Made by a program: the position numbers and the translations under genes. From Chryseobacterium paludis (GTDB taxonomy: Bacteria; Bacteroidota; Bacteroidia; Flavobacteriales; Weeksellaceae): a stretch of DNA of 64,000 bases. The notes under the pieces were generated by a model that saw only the letters and a list, made by a program, of their open reading frames with translations, was not told the origin of the DNA and searched no databases. The stretch is from contig NZ_CP099966.1 of the NCBI RefSeq assembly GCF_025403485.1, positions 4,958,501-5,022,500 of the forward strand. Reading direction: 5' to 3'. Every line of letters begins with the position of its first letter. The first letter of the stretch is position 1. Shown piece by piece: positions 27,963 through 36,195 of the stretch.

Positions 27963-28697
27963 TTAATTCTTTATTGAATTTATAAAATCTATGGCATTGA
28001 TCTTCCAATCTTTATTTTGCAATAATATATTCACGAAAGCAGTTCCTATAATTCCACCATCCGCTTTTTCGGTTACGTTTTCAAAATCTTCTTTAGATTT
28101 TATTCCAAAGCCAATCATCACCGGATTTTTAAGCGGAAGAGAGGCTATCCTGGAAAGATAGTCTTCATTTTTCAAAACAGCATTTTTATTTCCTGTTGTA
28201 GATGAGGAACTTACAGCATATAAAAATCCTGAACTTAGAGAATCCAAATATAAAATCCTTTCATCCGAAGTTTCAGGGGTGATTAAAAATGTAAAATTGA
28301 GATCATACTTCTTAAGGATTTGCTGATAGTTTTTCTCGAATTCAATAGGAGGAAGGTCGGGAATAATTAAGCCTGAAACTCCACTTTCCGAACATTCTTT
28401 GCAGAAATTTTCGAAACCAAAACTTAAAACAGGATTAATGTAACCCATTAAAATAATCGGAATTTTGATCTCATTTTTAATGGATTTCAGTTGTGAAAGT
28501 AGTTTTTTAATCGTCATGCCATTTTCCAGGGCCAGTTCATGGGCTTTCTGAATAACTGGCCCATCAGCGACAGGATCAGAATAAGGCATTCCGATTTCCA
28601 TCATATCCGCTCCGGAATCCTGTATTAATTTTATAATATCAGCAGTATCTTCCAGTTGTGGAATCCCCGCCGTGAAGTATATGTTGAGTTTTTTCAT
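27963..28697 (-). CDS. trpA: Tryptophan synthase alpha subunit
   Basis: A 244-residue TIM barrel that cleaves indole-3-glycerol phosphate to indole. Catalytic Glu in DMMEIGMPYSDPVADGP (residues about 38-54) and the Asp in GLIIPDLPPIEFE are present, as are GFGIKSKEDF and GGIIGTAFVN phosphate-binding segments. The start MKKLNIYFTAGIPQ at 28697 fits the family; the frame extends to 28724, but the added nine residues are not conserved in type. It is the last trp gene, 133 bp after trpB. Confidence 0.95.
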   Translation of the reverse strand: MKKLNIYFTAGIPQLEDTADIIKLIQDSGADMMEIGMPYSDPVADGPVIQKAHELALENGMTIKKLLSQLKSIKNEIKIPIILMGYINPVLSFGFENFCKECSESGVSGLIIPDLPPIEFEKNYQQILKKYDLNFTFLITPETSDERILYLDSLSSGFLYAVSSSSTTGNKNAVLKNEDYLSRIASLPLKNPVMIGFGIKSKEDFENVTEKADGGIIGTAFVNILLQNKDWKINAIDFINSIKN

Positions 28698-28830
28698 AGA
28701 GTTAAATTGTATTGATGTATTCATGTATAATATATTGATGATATCTCCAGTGAATTATCATCTTAAATTAAAGAAGCATGATTTTCTTTGGCAACTTTCA
28801 AAATCATTTTACATAAATACTTTTTACAGA

Positions 28831-30009
28831 TTAAAGATTAGCTAAGTACGTTTCCATATCCTTGTCACCACGTCCGCTTAAACAGATGACAACAATATCA
28901 TTTTCATTGAATTTCTTTTTATCTAAAACTGCCAGAGCGTGAGAGCTTTCCAATGCAGGAATGATACCCTCTAGTTTGGTCAGTTCAAAAGCACATTTTA
29001 AGGCTTCATCATCATTGATGCTGAAAAATTCAGCACGCTTTTCTTTAAATAAATGAGCATGAAACGGTCCGATTCCCGGATAATCTAAACCTGCAGAAAT
29101 AGAGTGGGGCTCAATTACCTGCCCGTCATTCGTCTGCATAACAAGACTTTTACTGCCGTGTAAAACACCTAAAGTTCCAAGAAAAGTAGTAGCAGCTGAT
29201 TTCCCTGATTCTACGCCGAAACCACCTGCTTCTGCGGCAATAATTTTTACACTTTCTTCTTCTACAAAATGATAGAAAGTTCCTGCGGCATTGCTTCCAC
29301 CACCCACACAGGCGATGACATAATCAGGGTTCTCTCTTCCGATCTGTTCCTTAAGCTGTTCCCTGATCTCTTTTGAAATAATACTTTGAAATCTGGCAAC
29401 AAGATCAGGAAAAGGATGCGGTCCTACCACACTTCCAATCACATAGTGGGTGGTTACCGGGTGGTTGATCCAATCCCTTAAGGCTTCATTAACGGCATCT
29501 TTTAATGTCTTTGATCCTGAAGTTGCAGGAATCACTTCTGCACCCAACATTTTCATTCTTGCTACATTGGGAGCCTGTCTTTGAATATCTACTTCACCCA
29601 TATAAACGATGCATTCCAACCCAAGCAAAGCACAGGCTGTAGCTGTGGCAACACCATGTTGTCCAGCACCGGTTTCAGCAATGATCCTGGTTTTTCCAAG
29701 ACGTTTTGCCAATAGTACCTGACCAAGTGCATTGTTGATTTTGTGTGCTCCTGTGTGATTGAGATCTTCTCTTTTTAAATAAATGTTCGTATTGTATTTA
29801 TTACTTAAATTCTTCGCAAAATAAAGTGGAGTAGCTCGTCCTACATAGTTTTTTAGTAAATCCTGATATTCTTTCTGAAATTCTTCAGATTCGATGATTT
29901 CAAGATAGTTTTTTTGGAGCTCTTCTACATTGGGGTAAAGCATTTCAGGAATGAAAGCCCCTCCGAATTCTCCATAATATCCATTCTTATCCGGGTTTTT
30001 ATAATTCAT
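28831..30009 (-). CDS. trpB: Tryptophan synthase beta subunit
   Basis: A 392-residue PLP enzyme joining indole and serine. It starts [20 protein letters not shown]; the PLP lysine is in [13 protein letters not shown] (about residue 83), [14 protein letters not shown] follows, the phosphate cup is [10 protein letters not shown], and the Ser near the ring nitrogen is in CLSGRGDKD. TrpB1 type, with full length. It is preceded by a 167-bp gap after the small operon gene, which contains a decayed coding fragment. Confidence 0.97.
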
Positions 30010-30020
30010 TTTCTTTATTG

Positions 30021-30143
30021 TTATTGTATTAAATAATCGGGATCCGTTGAATCAAGCTGTTTGAGCAGGTTTTTATTTTCTTCAGATAAGTGAATAATTG
30101 AGATATCATTTTCTTTTCCCAAAGCTCTATGGGTCTTTTTATT
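30021..30143 (-). pseudogene. Possible relic coding fragment between the trp operon genes
   Basis: A 40-codon frame that ends at a stop (30021-30023) reads THRALGKENDISIIHLSEEN and then [17 protein letters not shown], which has protein-like composition. It has no ATG and opens directly after a stop at 30144-30146. It looks like the 3' remnant of a lost gene, or a gene disrupted by frameshift. No family was recognised. Confidence 0.35.
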
Positions 30144-30176
30144 TTAAAGTCTGCCAGCTATTCTGTCTTTTTAATA

Positions 30177-30692
30177 TTATAAATCATTGTTTACATTATT
30201 GATAAATGACAGATTATGATCAAACTGTTGTCTGGTGATCTGCTTGTTCATATATAAAAATTTTATTTTACTCGCTATACTGATTAAAGTTTCCATATCA
30301 AGTTTTGAGTGATACATTTTAAATATCAGTTCCAGATTGTCCAGTAAATAATAAGAGTCTAATTTTTCATATGATAGGAAGATCTTAAAGTATATTTTCC
30401 CCAAATCATAGTTAACATTGGTTCTAACCGTGTTTTCCATAAGTTTGTCTGCGATCATCACCAGATGATATCCATCCCATAAATGAATGGTTTTAAAAAA
30501 ATATTGAATGTCCAGTTCATCAAAATCTTTAATGATATCAATAAATTGGGATAATAAACCTCCCATTTCCCAGAAGTCCGTTGTACTATCATTTTCGGAT
30601 ATAAATTGATAAAGTTTTTTTACATTTTTATTATCAAACCTTGGTGGAAACAATACCTGATAAAACTGTTTTTTTAATGATTTTATATTCAT
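30177..30692 (-). CDS. Unknown protein encoded within the trp operon
   Basis: A 171-residue, probably all-helical cytoplasmic protein (MNIKSLKKQFYQVLFPPRF, then FDELDIQYFFKTIHLWDGYH, LLDNLELIFKMYHSKLDMET). No catalytic motif, signal peptide or membrane segment was seen and no family was recognised. Its ATG overlaps the trpF stop (ATGA), so translation is coupled to trpF, and it sits between trpF and trpB. Placement suggests a link with tryptophan synthesis, but it may equally be a passenger gene. Confidence 0.7.
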   Translation of the reverse strand: MNIKSLKKQFYQVLFPPRFDNKNVKKLYQFISENDSTTDFWEMGGLLSQFIDIIKDFDELDIQYFFKTIHLWDGYHLVMIADKLMENTVRTNVNYDLGKIYFKIFLSYEKLDSYYLLDNLELIFKMYHSKLDMETLISIASKIKFLYMNKQITRQQFDHNLSFINNVNNDL

Positions 30693-31345
30693 AGGTTTGA
30701 GTTTAATAGGTTAGACTTAAATAAACGTACTTTTTCCAAATCCTTAATTCCTGGTGTGATCTCAAATTTTGAATTGATATCCAGAGCAAAAGGCCTTTGA
30801 TTCAGGATTTTTACGTTATCAATATTTTCTTCTGAGATCCCTCCACTTAAGAAATAGGGGATTTTTATTTCCAATTCATTCAATAATGACCAGTCAAATT
30901 GCTTTCCTGTTCCTCCAAATGACTGACTGTCTGTATCAAACAAAATGTAGTCCACATCGAATTGTAAATGTTTAATTGTAGACTTCAGCTCTTCTATTGT
31001 GTTGGCTATTCTAAATACTTTTATAATCTTAGTAGCAGGGTTTAGCTTTTTTCTTAATTCCGAAATATAATGCAGGCTTTCGTCACCATGAAGCTGAATG
31101 AAATTCAGATCAGCCTGTTTCGCAATTTCTAATATAATATCTGGTTCCGCATTTACAAAAACACCTACTTTTCCCTCATGAATAATTTTCGAAATATCTT
31201 TTAAACTTAAACGATTAAGTGCATATCTGGGTGATTTTTTATAGAATATAAATCCAAGGAAGTCAATATTCATAGAAATTAATTCGTGAATTTGATCGAG
31301 TTCTGATAAACCGCAAACTTTTATATGTAAGTTGTTGTCTGTCAT
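30689..31345 (-). CDS. trpF: Phosphoribosylanthranilate isomerase
   Basis: A 218-residue TIM barrel catalysing the Amadori rearrangement of PRA to CdRP. It has KVCGLSELDQI with the catalytic Cys (residue 11), FLGFIFYKKSPRY, LNFIQLHGDES, ILFDTDSQSFGGTGKQFDWS with the catalytic Asp, and PYFLSGGISEENI. The length is normal. Its start overlaps the trpC stop by one base (TAATG), and its stop overlaps the next start by four bases. Confidence 0.95.
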   Translation of the reverse strand: MTDNNLHIKVCGLSELDQIHELISMNIDFLGFIFYKKSPRYALNRLSLKDISKIIHEGKVGVFVNAEPDIILEIAKQADLNFIQLHGDESLHYISELRKKLNPATKIIKVFRIANTIEELKSTIKHLQFDVDYILFDTDSQSFGGTGKQFDWSLLNELEIKIPYFLSGGISEENIDNVKILNQRPFALDINSKFEITPGIKDLEKVRLFKSNLLNSNL

Positions 31346-32124
31346 TATACAGCTACATTATCGATAAATTCCTCAAATGCCTTCGCAGGATTTTCATTCT
31401 TCATAAAATATTCACCCATCAAAAATCCATCAAAACCCTTTTCTTTCAAATAATGAAAATCTTCAATATGATAAATTCCACTTTCTGCAACAGATAAGAC
31501 TTCCTTTGGTAGCTGATTTTTCAATTTAACAGAATGTTGTAGGTCAACTTTAAAATCTTTTAAATTCCTGTTATTTACTCCCACCAAATCAATGGCAGAG
31601 TGGTAGTGCTTCAGTTCTTCTTCAGTATGGATTTCCAGTAGAACCTCCAATCCGAGCTTATGAGATAAATCTGTGAATTCCAAAACCTGCGCAGGAGAAA
31701 GACAAGCAGCAATTAATAGGATTACATCAGCACCCATATTTTTCGCTTCATAGAACTGGTATTCGTCGATCATAAAGTCTTTTCTAAGAATAGGAACTGC
31801 AATATGATCCCGAACACTAAGGATATCTTCGAAACTCCCCCCAAAAAAATCGCTATCTGTCAGAATAGAAATTCCGCTTGCTCCAAAATTTTCATACGCA
31901 GAAACAACCTCTAAAGGAGAAACCTTGTTGTTGATAATTCCTTTTGATGGTGACTGTCTTTTAAATTCGGCAATAATTCCGCTTTTTTCTTTTAGCGACG
32001 TTTTTAAAGATTTGGTTTGTCTTCCAAAAAAAACAGAATCTTTTAATTCTTCAATGGAAATACTTGCCTTTGAAAAAGCAACCTCTTCCTTTTTTTTCGA
32101 TATAATTTTATCTAATATGGTCAT
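31345..32124 (-). CDS. trpC: Indole-3-glycerol phosphate synthase
   Basis: A 259-residue TIM barrel that closes CdRP to indole-3-glycerol phosphate. Catalytic residues are in IIAEFKRQSPSKG (Glu, Lys), PILRKDFMIDEYQFYEA (Lys), LEVLLEIHTEEEL (Glu) and VGVNNRNLKDFKVD (Asn), plus VAESGIYHIED and GFLMGEYFMKNENP for phosphate. It is monofunctional (not fused to trpF). It starts 52 bp after trpD and overlaps trpF by one base. Confidence 0.96.
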   Translation of the reverse strand: MTILDKIISKKKEEVAFSKASISIEELKDSVFFGRQTKSLKTSLKEKSGIIAEFKRQSPSKGIINNKVSPLEVVSAYENFGASGISILTDSDFFGGSFEDILSVRDHIAVPILRKDFMIDEYQFYEAKNMGADVILLIAACLSPAQVLEFTDLSHKLGLEVLLEIHTEEELKHYHSAIDLVGVNNRNLKDFKVDLQHSVKLKNQLPKEVLSVAESGIYHIEDFHYLKEKGFDGFLMGEYFMKNENPAKAFEEFIDNVAV

Positions 32125-32176
32125 TTAATGTGTGTTTTTTTATGCTTTTATTTCAATCAAATCTTATCCATTGTTA

Positions 32177-33205
32177 TTATTCCAGTAATAGTTCCATACT
32201 TCTCAAAGCTCTACCACTTTGTAAACTTTCCTGAGCCAATAAAAGGCAATCATCATAACTCCCGAATTTTTCGGTATGATAAAGCGCAATGGAAGCATTT
32301 GCCAAAACCACAGAGTTTTGTGATTCTGTTCCCTTACCTTCTAAAATGTTTCTGAAAATAGTTGCCGCTTCCTGAATTGTTTTACCTGCCTGTATGCTTT
32401 CTGGAGTTACCGGATCAAATCCAAGATCTTCCGCTGAATAAATATTCTCACCTTTTTTGGTAATAATTTTACTGTCATGGGTTAAGCTTATTTCATCATA
32501 ACCATCCAGACCATGAACAAGAATAAACTCCTGGGAATCTTTTTGTAATAGATATTGATAAATCCTTGCAATCTCCAGATTATAAACTCCGATCACGGAA
32601 AATTTTGGTTTAGCAGGATTTACCAACGGACCTAATAAATTAAAAAATGTTCTTAACCCTAGCGATTTTCGTAATGCACCAACAGATTGAAGGGCAGGAT
32701 GAAAGTAGGGAGCATGTAAAAAGCAGATATTGGCTTTTTCAAGATCACGGCTTAGCTTTTCAGAGTCATTATTCATTTGATAACCGAGCTCTTCTAAAAC
32801 ATTGGAAGAACCTGTAACTGCTGAAGCTCCATAATTTCCATGTTTAGTTACTTTTTGCCCGGCTCCGGCAATAACAAAACTTGCCAATGTTGAAATATTA
32901 ATAGTGTTTTTCCCATCACCTCCGGTTCCAACAATATCTATAGCATCACTGGCATCTATATTTACAGGAACAGCCATTTGTAACAATGCTTCTCTAAAGC
33001 CTTCCAATTCTCTCAACGTAATATTACGCATAAGGAAAACACTAATAAAGGCAGTGACCTCCGTTGTGTTAAACTTATTTTGAGCAATTTCAATCATGAT
33101 AGCCTTAGCTTCAGATTTTGATAAGGTATGATGATTAAACAAATATTGCAAAATTTCTTTCATTTGTGGTGTTTTTATGGTTGAGGTGCTTTCTAATGTT
33201 TTCAA
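32177..33205 (-). CDS. trpD: Anthranilate phosphoribosyltransferase
   Basis: A 342-residue enzyme transferring phosphoribose from PRPP to anthranilate. It has DIVGTGGDGKNTINIST (PRPP-binding, residues about 90-106), KHGNYGASAVTGSSNVLEELG, HPALQSVGALRKSLGLRTFFN and GLDGYDEIS. Start ATG 33205 overlaps the trpG stop (ATGA), which favours it. Family members usually begin at MKEILQYLFNHHTL, so an internal start at 33163 remains possible. Confidence 0.95.
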   Translation of the reverse strand: MKTLESTSTIKTPQMKEILQYLFNHHTLSKSEAKAIMIEIAQNKFNTTEVTAFISVFLMRNITLRELEGFREALLQMAVPVNIDASDAIDIVGTGGDGKNTINISTLASFVIAGAGQKVTKHGNYGASAVTGSSNVLEELGYQMNNDSEKLSRDLEKANICFLHAPYFHPALQSVGALRKSLGLRTFFNLLGPLVNPAKPKFSVIGVYNLEIARIYQYLLQKDSQEFILVHGLDGYDEISLTHDSKIITKKGENIYSAEDLGFDPVTPESIQAGKTIQEAATIFRNILEGKGTESQNSVVLANASIALYHTEKFGSYDDCLLLAQESLQSGRALRSMELLLE

Positions 33206-33816
33206 TGTAAAAGGAAGTTTTTAATGATTACTTCTCCATCAGGAGTTAAAATACTTTCAGGATGAAACTGTACACCATGTACATCATAGGTTTTATGCTG
33301 CAAGGCCATAATCATTCCATCTTTATCAACAGCTGTTATTTCCAGTTCTTCAGGAAATTGGTCGGGATCTACAGCCCAACTGTGATATCTTCCTACCTCA
33401 AGTCCTGAAGATAAATTTTGAAAGAGTTTTGTTTTATCTTTTGTCAGTTCAGCCGTCGTGGCTACGCCATGAAAAATTTCAGAAAGATTAATTAGCTTTC
33501 CACCAAAAGCCTCGGCAATAGCTTGCTGCCCAAGGCAAACTCCCAGAATACTTTTTGTGGAGGCATATTTTCTGATTAAATCCAATAAAATCCCTGATTC
33601 TTCAGGAATTCCCGGACCGGGTGACAGAATGATTTTATCATATTTGTCAATATCTTCTAAACTTATTTCATCGTTTCTGAAGACATCTACTTTTTGATCC
33701 AGAATTTTTTCAATAATCTGTACAAGATTATAGGTAAAGCTATCATAATTATCAAAAACTAAAACTTTAGCTGTTGATTGACCTTCTATATTTTTATTCA
33801 TCTCTTTATTTATCAT
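33202..33816 (-). CDS. trpG: Anthranilate synthase component II (glutamine amidotransferase)
   Basis: A 204-residue class I glutaminase supplying ammonia to TrpE. It has LVFDNYDSFTYNLVQ, ILSPGPGIPEESG, the nucleophile Cys in GVCLGQQAIAEAFGG, and the His/Glu pair in VHGVQFHPESILT. Start 33816 gives about 16 residues before the conserved core; MNKNIEGQ at 33801 is an alternative. It is coupled to trpD by a 4-base overlap. Confidence 0.95.
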   Translation of the reverse strand: MINKEMNKNIEGQSTAKVLVFDNYDSFTYNLVQIIEKILDQKVDVFRNDEISLEDIDKYDKIILSPGPGIPEESGILLDLIRKYASTKSILGVCLGQQAIAEAFGGKLINLSEIFHGVATTAELTKDKTKLFQNLSSGLEVGRYHSWAVDPDQFPEELEITAVDKDGMIMALQHKTYDVHGVQFHPESILTPDGEVIIKNFLLH

Positions 33817-33865: not shown

Positions 33866-35287
33866 CTAATAATTTAGTTTGTCAGCTTTTTCTACTGCCT
33901 TTTTTAATGCATTTAGTTTATTATTAACTTCCTGTAATTCACTTTCAGGGTTTGATTTGGCTACTAATCCTGCTCCTGCCTGATAAAATAACGTATTGTT
34001 TTTACTTAGAAAAGTTCGGATCATGATTGCCTGATTACAGGTTCCATTAAGTCCCACCATTCCAATGCAACCTCCGTAATAGCCACGGGAATCTTTTTCA
34101 TATTTATTGATCAGCTGAAGAGCTTTGTGCTTGGGTGCGCCACTTAGAGTTCCTTGTGGAAAGGTGGATGAAACAACCTCAAAAGGATTCGTATCTCTTG
34201 GTAATTCCGCTGTAACTTCACTTACCATATGGATAACGTGAGAAAAAAGCTGAATTTCTTTCAATTTGGTAACGGTAATATTTTTCCCCATTTTCCCAAG
34301 ATCATTTCTTGCCAGATCCACCAACATGGTATGTTCTGCGTTTTCTTTAGGATCATTTTTTAATTCCTCAATAGACTGCAGATCGATATCAAAGTTTCCG
34401 GTTCTTTTGAATGTTCCGGCAATAGGGTGGATGATCGCTTTATGATCTTTAATAATTAACTGGCTTTCGGGACTGGATCCAAATAATTTATAGTCTCCAT
34501 AATCGAAAAAGAATAAATAAGGAGAAGGATTGATATTTCTTAAAGCTCGATACACATTGAACTCATCACCCAGGAATTTTTGCTCAAACCTTCTGCTTAG
34601 TACCAATTGGAAAACGTCTCCTCGCATACAGTGTCTCTGAGCTGTTTTTACCAATTCAAGATATTCTTCATCAGTAATGTTTGAAGTTTCCGCCCCCGTT
34701 TTTTCGAAAGGATAGACTACTGAGCTTTTGTTCTTTATTAAATTTTCCAACGTATAAAGTTCAGATTTAACACCTTCAATTTGATTTTCAATAAAATGCA
34801 TCTCATCATTGTAATGATTAATAGCAATGACATATTGGTATAGTCTGTATCTGACTAAAGGAATTTCAACCTCTTCACTTTGTGCTTTAAAATTGACATT
34901 CTCAAAAAACTGAACTGCTTCAAAACTGGTATATCCAAAAAGATTTTGTGCAGTTTCTTCAATAGGATCTGCTGTTTTCTCACAGTCGAAAACTGAAGAA
35001 AAATCATGCAGAATATCTGCTATCTTATGATCGATGATGAATTGTTTTACAGGTTCTGAATTGGGAAGCTTTATTTCAAACTCTTTTAGATTCTTTACCT
35101 CAATTCCAGCAATGGCATTTACTGCAATAAAAGAAAAATTATTATCGATATTTTTAGAATCTGAACTCTCCAAAAGAATGGTATCTCTAAATTTATCTCT
35201 GATTTGTAGATAGATATTCATTGGAGTCTGGAGATCCCCCAATGTTTTTTTCGAAACTGTTTTTACTTTTATTTTTTTGTTAAACAT
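33866..35287 (-). CDS. trpE: Anthranilate synthase component I
   Basis: A 473-residue chorismate-utilising enzyme. The C-terminal catalytic domain has RHCMRGDVFQLVLSRRFEQ, YLFFFDYGDYKLFGSSPESQ, HPIAGTFKRTG, EHTMLVDLARNDLGK, and SGAPKHKALQLI plus RGYYGGCIG. The N-terminal domain has LLESSDSKN, the usual LLES element that takes part in tryptophan feedback. The start chosen is MFNKKIKVKTVSKKT at 35287; a frame extension to 35335 would begin inside the attenuator terminator. It is the first enzyme gene of the operon and lies just after the attenuator. Confidence 0.95.
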   Translation of the reverse strand: MFNKKIKVKTVSKKTLGDLQTPMNIYLQIRDKFRDTILLESSDSKNIDNNFSFIAVNAIAGIEVKNLKEFEIKLPNSEPVKQFIIDHKIADILHDFSSVFDCEKTADPIEETAQNLFGYTSFEAVQFFENVNFKAQSEEVEIPLVRYRLYQYVIAINHYNDEMHFIENQIEGVKSELYTLENLIKNKSSVVYPFEKTGAETSNITDEEYLELVKTAQRHCMRGDVFQLVLSRRFEQKFLGDEFNVYRALRNINPSPYLFFFDYGDYKLFGSSPESQLIIKDHKAIIHPIAGTFKRTGNFDIDLQSIEELKNDPKENAEHTMLVDLARNDLGKMGKNITVTKLKEIQLFSHVIHMVSEVTAELPRDTNPFEVVSSTFPQGTLSGAPKHKALQLINKYEKDSRGYYGGCIGMVGLNGTCNQAIMIRTFLSKNNTLFYQAGAGLVAKSNPESELQEVNNKLNALKKAVEKADKLNY

Positions 35288-35317: not shown

Positions 35318-35355
35318 ATAAAAAAAAGACTTCAACGGAATCCGTCAAAGTCTTT
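35318..35355 (-). terminator. Attenuator terminator of the trp operon
   Basis: Read on the minus strand, arms AAAGACTTTGACGGA and TCCGTTGAAGTCTTT pair (two G-U pairs), followed by a run of eight T, ending 30 bases before the trpE start. It lies between the leader peptide and trpE rather than at the end of a gene, so it is a regulatory terminator. Its first arm can instead pair with 35420-35431. Confidence 0.9.
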
Positions 35356-35397
35356 GTATTTTGTTTTATCTTATTTTCTGTAAGCGTAGCTTAACAG

Positions 35398-35475
35398 TTA
35401 GCAACATGATAATAACTTCAGACCCGACGAAGAGTTTGAATGCCACCACCAAAAATTATTGCTCGTATTAAACAT
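35398..35475 (-). CDS. trpL: Tryptophan leader peptide with three tandem Trp codons
   Basis: A 25-residue ORF starting MFNTSNNFWWWHSNSSSGLK and ending LLSCC. Its three consecutive TGG codons (residues 9-11, 35451-35443) are the hallmark of a Trp-sensing leader. It sits between the operon promoter and the attenuator terminator. Stalling at scarce Trp-tRNA would leave 35420-35431 free to pair with the terminator's first arm and allow transcription into trpE; rapid translation would cover that region and let the terminator form. The -7 box ends four bases before the ATG, so the mRNA may start at or near the ATG itself. Confidence 0.9.
   Translation of the reverse strand: MFNTSNNFWWWHSNSSSGLKLLSCC
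35420..35431 (-). promoter_or_regulatory. Antiterminator strand of the trp attenuator
   Basis: Minus-strand TTCGTCGGGTCT, inside the leader peptide frame and 11 bases after the last Trp codon. It can pair with AGACTTTGACGGA (35341-35353), the first arm of the terminator, over 12 pairs (three G-U) with one bulged T. The two structures exclude each other. Confidence 0.75.
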
Positions 35476-35479
35476 GGCA

Positions 35480-35507
35480 CAAATGTAGATAATTTTTTAT
35501 TATCAAA
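35480..35507 (-). promoter_or_regulatory. Promoter of the trp operon
   Basis: On the minus strand -33 TTTG (35504-35507), 16 bases, then -7 TACATTTG (35480-35487). The spacing is a little short for the phylum, but the -7 box is exact (TAnnTTTG). Confidence 0.65.
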
Positions 35508-35550: not shown

Positions 35551-36195
35551 CTATTTCAATTGTTTTAAATTATTCTTCAATTCTTCTAATTTTATGCTGT
35601 AATTTTTATCGTTATATACCTGTAAATAAGCCTCTAAAGCGGAAATGTATTCTTGTATAAATTCTTTATTGGTCGGATCTGCTTCATATTTAATTTTTGC
35701 AGTATTAATGGGAGCCTGCATTTCATATTGACGTAAGTTTTTACCTTCCTCAGATTCATTGTAAAGAATGACTATATTTTTCTCATAACCCGGAATGTAT
35801 TTTACAGGAAAAGTCTTGTTTACTTGTGGGATACGAATGGCATTTTCAATAGGGTATATGGATGCTGAGGTGGTTGAAAAATTCGTAGTCGCATATTTTC
35901 CATCCTGTTTCTTTACAATGGCTTCATAATCATGGATATACTGATCATTTAAGGTAGAATTTGTTTCAACATCTGAAGTGATTATTGCTGTGCTTTCAAT
36001 GCCGTATTTATTTAAAAACCATGCATTTAAAAACTGTCCTGCGAACCCATTTGCAATTGACAAAGGAATAATAGGAAGCAGCATCCACCACTTTTTAGTA
36101 ATAAATGACAGAAAACAGAAAAAAATAATAAGAAGTATCACAGTATAAAAACCATGATGGCTTGTGAAAAACAGAATTTTAGAAATAAAGATCAT
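35551..36195 (-). CDS. Membrane-anchored protein of unknown function
   Basis: A 214-residue protein: two N-terminal membrane segments (residues about 16-32 VILLIIFFCFLSFIT and 36-56 WMLLPIIPLSIANGFAGQF), then a soluble domain that resembles the extracytoplasmic part of DUF3592-like proteins (ESTAIITSDVETNST, IRIPQVNKTFPVKYIPGYEK) and a C-terminal helical tail (EYISALEAYLQVYNDKNYSI). The family link is weak. It lies upstream of the trp operon on the same strand, separated by the operon's promoter, and is a separate transcript. Confidence 0.6.
   Translation of the reverse strand: MIFISKILFFTSHHGFYTVILLIIFFCFLSFITKKWWMLLPIIPLSIANGFAGQFLNAWFLNKYGIESTAIITSDVETNSTLNDQYIHDYEAIVKKQDGKYATTNFSTTSASIYPIENAIRIPQVNKTFPVKYIPGYEKNIVILYNESEEGKNLRQYEMQAPINTAKIKYEADPTNKEFIQEYISALEAYLQVYNDKNYSIKLEELKNNLKQLK

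Follow-up and report, generated by a model that had tools for sequence, protein, structure and literature searches.

The window, a 64,000-nt stretch of the Chryseobacterium paludis genome, carries a tryptophan operon on its minus strand, with a promoter, a short leader ORF and an intrinsic terminator upstream of its first gene:

35504..35507, minus strand: possible -33 promoter element, TTTG, a weak element read from the sequence
35480..35487, minus strand: -7 promoter box TACATTTG of the sigma ABfr type (consensus TAnnTTTG), separated from the leader ATG by 4 nt
35475, minus strand: predicted transcription start at the A of the leader AUG (within ~1 nt), placed by the 4-nt spacing
35398..35475, minus strand: leader ORF MFNTSNNFWWWHSNSSSGLKLLSCC, ATG at 35475, 25 sense codons and TAA
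35443..35451, minus strand: Trp codons 9-11, TGGTGGTGG, the 5′ strand of the protector hairpin (sequence, folding)
35419..35439, minus strand: codons 13-19, wobble positions fixed too (codon 15 is TCC in one of 72 leaders)
35420..35431, minus strand: strand 2, the antiterminator strand TTCGTCGGGTCT, beginning 11 nt past the last TGG
35400..35463, minus strand: the whole protector (anti-antiterminator) hairpin (folding, comparison)
35463-35457 with 35406-35400, minus strand: protector outer stem (folding)
Trp codons with 35416-35407, minus strand: protector middle (folding)
UCA.ACUC with GGGU.UGA, minus strand: protector apex (folding, covariation)
35341..35353, minus strand: strand 3, which pairs with strand 2 and consists of the 5′ arm of the terminator and one base of its loop
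35325..35355, minus strand: intrinsic terminator hairpin of 14 pairs with a 3-nt loop, followed by a T run
33866..35287, minus strand: trpE, first gene of the operon, ATG at 35287 (TIGR00564, E 1.6e-120, 403 bits, below the cut-off of 518)
27963..33816, minus strand: trpG, trpD, trpC, trpF, an unknown 171-aa ORF, trpB and trpA (profile matches, with trpF below cut-offs)

Among the profile matches of the operon genes, trpE and trpF thus score under the NCBIfam cut-offs. The 171-aa ORF between trpF and trpB (30177-30692, minus strand) has no NCBIfam or Pfam match, and a 214-aa ORF that lies upstream of the trp promoter (35551-36195, minus strand) has no Pfam match. The original prediction had placed the promoter, the 25-codon ORF, TGG codons 9-11, the terminator and trpE correctly to the base, and the antiterminator of 12 pairs and one bulge that it described was recovered by RNAduplex (35431-35420 with 35353-35341). 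It had also held that all four parts of an attenuator were present. The parts it listed are in the sequence, but it had missed the protector hairpin, a structure that termination requires if the ribosome does not stall; the closeness of the promoter to the leader ATG, absent from that account, was likewise found in the follow-up.

Three consecutive TGG codons are not rare by themselves, as the genome holds 115 such places vs 89 for the reversed pattern. The parts of the locus exceed chance because they are conserved, the leader standing before trpE throughout the genus and the terminators recurring in 142/142 distinct leaders. TrpE is present in 60/60 Chryseobacterium genomes searched, and a leader ORF with TGGTGGTGG precedes trpE in all 60, with SNSSSGL following the Trp codons in 59. 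When the same leader test, with an ATG start, was applied to 80 named trpE loci (a set overlapping the 60 genomes), 78 passed, 74 of them with SNSSSGL, other genera included; the remaining two, L100 and L128, have the WWW run and no ATG within the stretch read, the trpE of L100 lying near the stretch end. Among the 80 named loci kept, the nearest relatives are Chryseobacterium species, the TrpE of C. paridis being 96% identical. In the family, 118 of 148 Weeksellaceae genomes have TrpE at E<=1e-100, and a leader with WW was found at 37 of the 40 trpE loci fetched from family genomes with TrpE, being absent in L210, L220 and L221. At the level of the class, TrpE was found at E<=1e-90 in 63/197 genomes, and 58 loci were read, 40 of which gave a WW candidate, a few of them probably by chance. 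In all, 199 stretches were read; 13 wrongly oriented ones were left out (those of the genus among them were later counted), and eight more loci were left without an orientation. Merging duplicates of unequal length reduced 169 rows to the 142 distinct leaders, which are distinct but related.

A terminator hairpin of -10 kcal/mol or lower was detected in all 142 distinct leaders vs 1/338 shuffled downstream stretches passed through the same detector. Covariation was counted in A1, an alignment of 34 Weeksellaceae sequences chosen to span genera, against shuffles that preserve column make-up, not relatedness. In the terminator, 96.2% of cells are paired, at most 56.2% in slid versions, and 37 cells carry a double change vs 7.9 in shuffled alignments (0/500 shuffles as high). 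RNAalifold run on A1 predicted the terminator only and no other helix. Counted helix by helix, compensatory changes occur in each of the terminator, the antiterminator and the protector apex across the 34 sequences. What the sequences themselves show is the arrangement of the parts, how well it is kept and that all three helices covary.

In the predicted fold, the protector pairs the Trp codons with codons 20-24 and adds an outer stem 5′ of the Trp codons. The cross-genus count is limited to the apex because the lower stems could not be aligned. In A1, 85.7% of apex cells are paired (slid versions, at most 54.4%), with 26 double-change cells vs 6.8 shuffled (0/500); counted by pairs, six have a double change, a value matched by 17/500 shuffles, which is a thin margin. 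Within Chryseobacterium the protector barely varies: over 72 distinct leaders, 94.6% of cells are paired vs 93.8% shuffled (maximum 94.2), further pair types number 15 vs 15.1, and double-change pairs 3 vs 1.2 (maximum 5), so that the within-genus data alone lend the hairpin little support. Over 26 species, the folding z of the leader stretch spans -4.9 to +0.2, the value for the window being -4.3. The protector, as predicted by folding and comparison, completes the classical set of attenuator parts.

The antiterminator of the window, taken alone, is only modestly better than chance: the strand 2:3 duplex of 12 pairs and one bulge has an RNAduplex energy of -13.5 kcal/mol, with z -1.9 relative to shuffled strand 2, and the mean z over 30 species is -1.8. 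In A1, 82.3% of its cells are paired, at most 55.0% in slid versions, and there are 23 double-change cells vs 8.9 shuffled (0/500). For example, columns 57-58 and 155-156 change from U-A/C-G to C-G/U-A in rows L165 and L170. Seven pairs have a double change, which 27/500 shuffles matched, again a thin margin. When strands were swapped across 19 species, the native duplexes averaged -13.6 vs -9.9 kcal/mol for the swapped ones, and 0/20000 permutations were as good; for the window, two foreign terminators and four foreign strands beat the native partner. Of 53 distinct combinations, 45 have strand 2 starting 8-14 nt past the last Trp codon, and in 24 the distance is exactly 11 nt. When the last UGG occupies the A site, the ribosome extends over some 10 nt downstream of it; a stall there would therefore leave strand 2 just free. 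The outer genera L214, L215, L218 and L222 gave no convincing antiterminator, with duplex z from -0.4 to +1.2 and strand 2 not at 8-14 nt. The prediction of an attenuator has withstood comparison across the Weeksellaceae, in that the Trp codons are kept and both the antiterminator and the terminator covary.

Taken together, these features make it very probable that the leader controls the trp operon by ribosome-mediated transcription attenuation. From them we infer a start site, leaderless translation, stalling, a folding order and a response to tryptophan as follows. RNA polymerase would start at, or adjoining, the leader AUG, and a ribosome would load on the bare 5′ end. With ample charged tRNA-Trp, it would reach the stop codon, ~44 nt short of strand 3, and depart. 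The protector would then re-form and hold strand 2 in its apex, leaving strand 3 to pair with strand 4, and transcription would end before trpE. Termination would need quick release, since most of strand 2 would be exposed if the ribosome paused on the stop codon. When Trp-tRNA is scarce, the ribosome would halt on the UGG run and occupy the 5′ strand of the protector, and strand 2, whose onset lies 11 nt past the last UGG, would be free to pair with strand 3 before strand 4 is made, so that transcription would continue into the trp genes. Folding predictions for this leader give strand 2:3 (-20.7 kcal/mol) when the stretch before strand 2 is removed and strand 4 is unmade, whereas once strand 4 is present the terminator fold is favoured (-26.9 kcal/mol), even with the upstream part removed. 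Because the completed terminator is the stabler of the two, antitermination has to rely on kinetics.

The start proposed here depends on the position of the promoter. In 129 of the 142 distinct leaders, 4 or 5 nt separate the -7 box from the ATG of the leader (4 nt in 103, 5 nt in 26), whereas a box at this distance is found for only 5 of the 2283 ATGs of the window, the trp leader counted among them. The spacing occurs in 13 genera: Chryseobacterium and g2, g9, g11, g16, g20, g21, g22, g23, g26, g27, g29 and g32. The exceptions by genus are g28 (6 nt), g8 (7 nt), g10 (10 nt), and g7 and g30, without a box within 24 nt; by locus they are 4/7 in g9, 1/2 in g22 and 1/2 in g23. In F. johnsoniae, passages of the published analysis place many predicted start sites 4 or 5 nt past the -7 box, describe the -33 element as much less evident and report that Bacteroidota mRNAs lack Shine-Dalgarno signals (PMC6847099); in F. 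psychrophilum, the box is given at -12 to -5 (PMC9723704). As the distance between box and AUG equals the published distance between box and start, transcription is predicted to begin on the A of the AUG or on a neighbouring base. The trp leader RNA is thus probably leaderless, the messenger beginning at the start codon of the peptide.

The alternative, that the TAnnTTTG box is coincidental and the leader has an ordinary 5′ UTR, concerns the start only and leaves the attenuator untouched. Leaderless RNAs are rare in the phylum, judging by published values: 5.5% in F. psychrophilum (PMC9723704), ~3.7% of 5′ UTRs below 10 nt in B. thetaiotaomicron (PMC7366714) and 87% of leaders above 10 nt in F. 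johnsoniae (PMC6847099). Seven of the 37 leader-bearing family loci lack a box 2-24 nt before an in-frame ATG, and class-wide the 4-5 nt spacing is found in only 5 of the 40 Trp candidates (L230, L238, L262, L270 and L277). The Trp leaders in four genomes of one genus of the same order (f2/g34) differ from that of the window, with 18-20 nt from box to ATG. Nevertheless, the recurrence of the spacing in 13 genera, far above its frequency at other ATGs, makes an ordinary UTR unlikely, if still a serious alternative.

Another reading has the terminated leader RNA or its peptide acting elsewhere, like rnTrpL and peTrpL of Sinorhizobium. Passages on Sinorhizobium meliloti trpLE(G) describe a leaderless attenuator RNA with its 5′ end at the leader ATG, as is predicted here, and report a trans-acting RNA and peptide; the phylum and the promoter are different (PMC7298713). 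In our leaders, the Ser-Cys-Cys end of the peptide is largely kept (S in 70, C in 68 and C in 68 of 72), and the Ser wobble position varies. However, the protector also holds the first two bases of these codons, and a constraint on the RNA can therefore explain their conservation. A trans-acting role, which we regard as improbable, would in any case supplement attenuation and not substitute for it.

A further possibility is an arrest of the TnaC type, in which the nascent peptide stalls the ribosome by its own sequence. Here, WWW-x-SNSSSG would be the arresting sequence and the RNA pairings would be secondary. The peptide after the Trp codons is indeed nearly uniform within the genus and among the named loci that passed the leader test. 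However, the conservation is at the nucleotide level: over 72 distinct Chryseobacterium-type leaders, codons 13-19 use a single codon in six of seven columns and 71/72 in the seventh. In trpE, by contrast, none of 76 columns with invariant Ser, Gly, Leu or Asn uses one codon (57 genes, the standard-length ones among the 76 loci L069-L144). The fixed wobble positions, unlike those of trpE, point to a constraint on the RNA and not on the peptide, and we reject the idea that the SNSSSG block is fixed mainly by a function of the peptide. The block does double duty, contributing to the apex of the protector and to the antiterminator. Beyond the genus, the residues differ (WWWPQNFQSLEH, WWWHLYSSLSLS and WWWSSSDSSVL) while the pairings persist. 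Peptide-sensing arrest is therefore very improbable. That another factor acts at the same place and the short ORF is incidental would fit a conserved terminator leader on the operon but is scarcely credible: TRAP and TrpR have no match in the genome, no Rfam family, T-box included, is over threshold in the 64,000-nt window, and with no match for any of them T-box, TRAP and TrpR control were rejected.

The ribosome-mediated attenuator favoured here can be compared with that of E. coli trpL, which has tandem Trp codons in strand 1, 1:2, 2:3 and 3:4 helices, and an intrinsic terminator before trpE. The C. paludis leader shares all of these. It differs in that strand 2 and the whole protector are inside the ORF, and in having an AUG predicted to be leaderless, in a phylum without Shine-Dalgarno signals and a genome with no TrpR match. 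Attenuators were reportedly predicted in Bacteroidetes by Vitreschak and colleagues (2004). The original prediction knew of no detailed account of leader-peptide attenuation in flavobacteria, but the novelty is smaller than this implied: the Rfam family RF01692 and two flavobacterial papers already propose it in the phylum. RF01692 (Bacteroid-trp) was listed in 2010 for Bacteroidetes, as an RNA with a probable cis-regulatory role (PMC2864571), and is mentioned before the F. psychrophilum trp operon (PMC6414381), and a passage of a transcriptome study reports strong clues that amino-acid operons of F. psychrophilum are attenuated through leader peptides (PMC9723704). The same mechanism has thus been proposed within the same bacterial class (PMC9723704, PMC6414381).

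RF01692, the "Bacteroidete tryptophan peptide leader RNA", resembles our leader in its phylum, its short ORF with tandem UGG, and its hairpin with the Trp codons in the 5′ strand, the model closing with a terminator arm; its matches in the family are mostly directly before trpE. The protector of the window resembles the hairpin of the model. Unlike the window leader, the model stops inside the terminator, without the antiterminator pairing (five alignments). Its positions 1-20, ~20 nt before the AUG, cover the -7 box (aligned with L175, L178, L182, L183 and L187) and are therefore probably promoter DNA that is not transcribed. By score, the window is not a member: it falls under the gathering score (49 bits), with no match at E<=10. 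The homology is instead seen through intermediates, since genera with RF01692 matches align with the window leader in A1 and fold alike. Judged from these sequences, the leader is a real, conserved attenuator of classical logic and of a known type that the curated model misses.

RF01692 matched 21 of 100 family genomes, 14 of them above the cut-off and none of the eight from Chryseobacterium, with filters that lose some weak matches. R1, a model built from A1 and thus trained on some of the genomes searched, matched 125/148 family genomes. The Rfam model misses much of the family, as R1, partly trained and with weak matches counted, found 79 of the same 100 genomes, including all 21 that were RF01692-positive. 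Fifteen R1 loci were fetched: seven have a WWW leader, one has WWGW and seven have none. Of the eight fetched with less than 44 bits, only one, L292 (43.5 bits), has a WWW leader, and weak R1 matches are therefore mostly chance.

The seven WWW leaders found outside the R1 training set lie before a TrpB-like PLP enzyme (L283, L285, L287, L288 and L292), trpB (L295) and a trpG-like gene (L284). The genes at L292 and L295 were tested against the family library, and those at the other R1 loci were read from sequence alone; the L292 enzyme is NF009057/TIGR01415, and those of L283, L285, L287 and L288 were assigned by similar reading. Genomes G073, G126, G141 and G149 are outside the 118 with TrpE at E<=1e-100, whereas G103, the genome of L292, has both TrpE and the TrpB-like enzyme. 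A further R1 match, L286:126-188 (45.9 bits), has the ORF MDTTINAYWWGWQGLQKIRA, and no trp gene was recognised within the 2.3 kb fetched. In the C. paludis genome itself, a his leader (L281:1156-1206) has MKPNFLTLHHYYHHLC and then a terminator-like hairpin before hisG, with a -7 box 18 nt upstream. A candidate ilv leader (L282:328-414), MKDRKYTSLSFESKLERTSCIAFGIGIG, lies upstream of ilvD, and the ilv operon is a weak candidate for a second attenuator in this genome. A leaderless start is ruled out as a general trait of the attenuators examined here: beside the 18 nt of the his leader, the seven extra Trp leaders are not leaderless by spacing, their boxes being 6 nt or 10-20 nt away or absent.

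From a biological perspective, leader-peptide attenuation had, in the literature searched, only been proposed in this phylum, and the present comparison adds helix-by-helix evidence for a full three-helix attenuator. Its most interesting feature is the predicted leaderless start; no leaderless trp attenuator in Bacteroidota was found in that literature. Such a start raises the questions of whether ribosome-mediated attenuation can use leaderless initiation and whether transcription and translation are coupled in Bacteroidota. On balance, we lean towards the view that most of the Weeksellaceae genera examined have a trp attenuator in the form of a leaderless mini-mRNA whose first bases would be seized by the ribosome, allowing early coupling without a Shine-Dalgarno signal and implying tight transcription-translation coupling in Bacteroidota, and that a related class may also stand before TrpB-like genes, in a role in tryptophan salvage, in relatives where no close trpE was detected.
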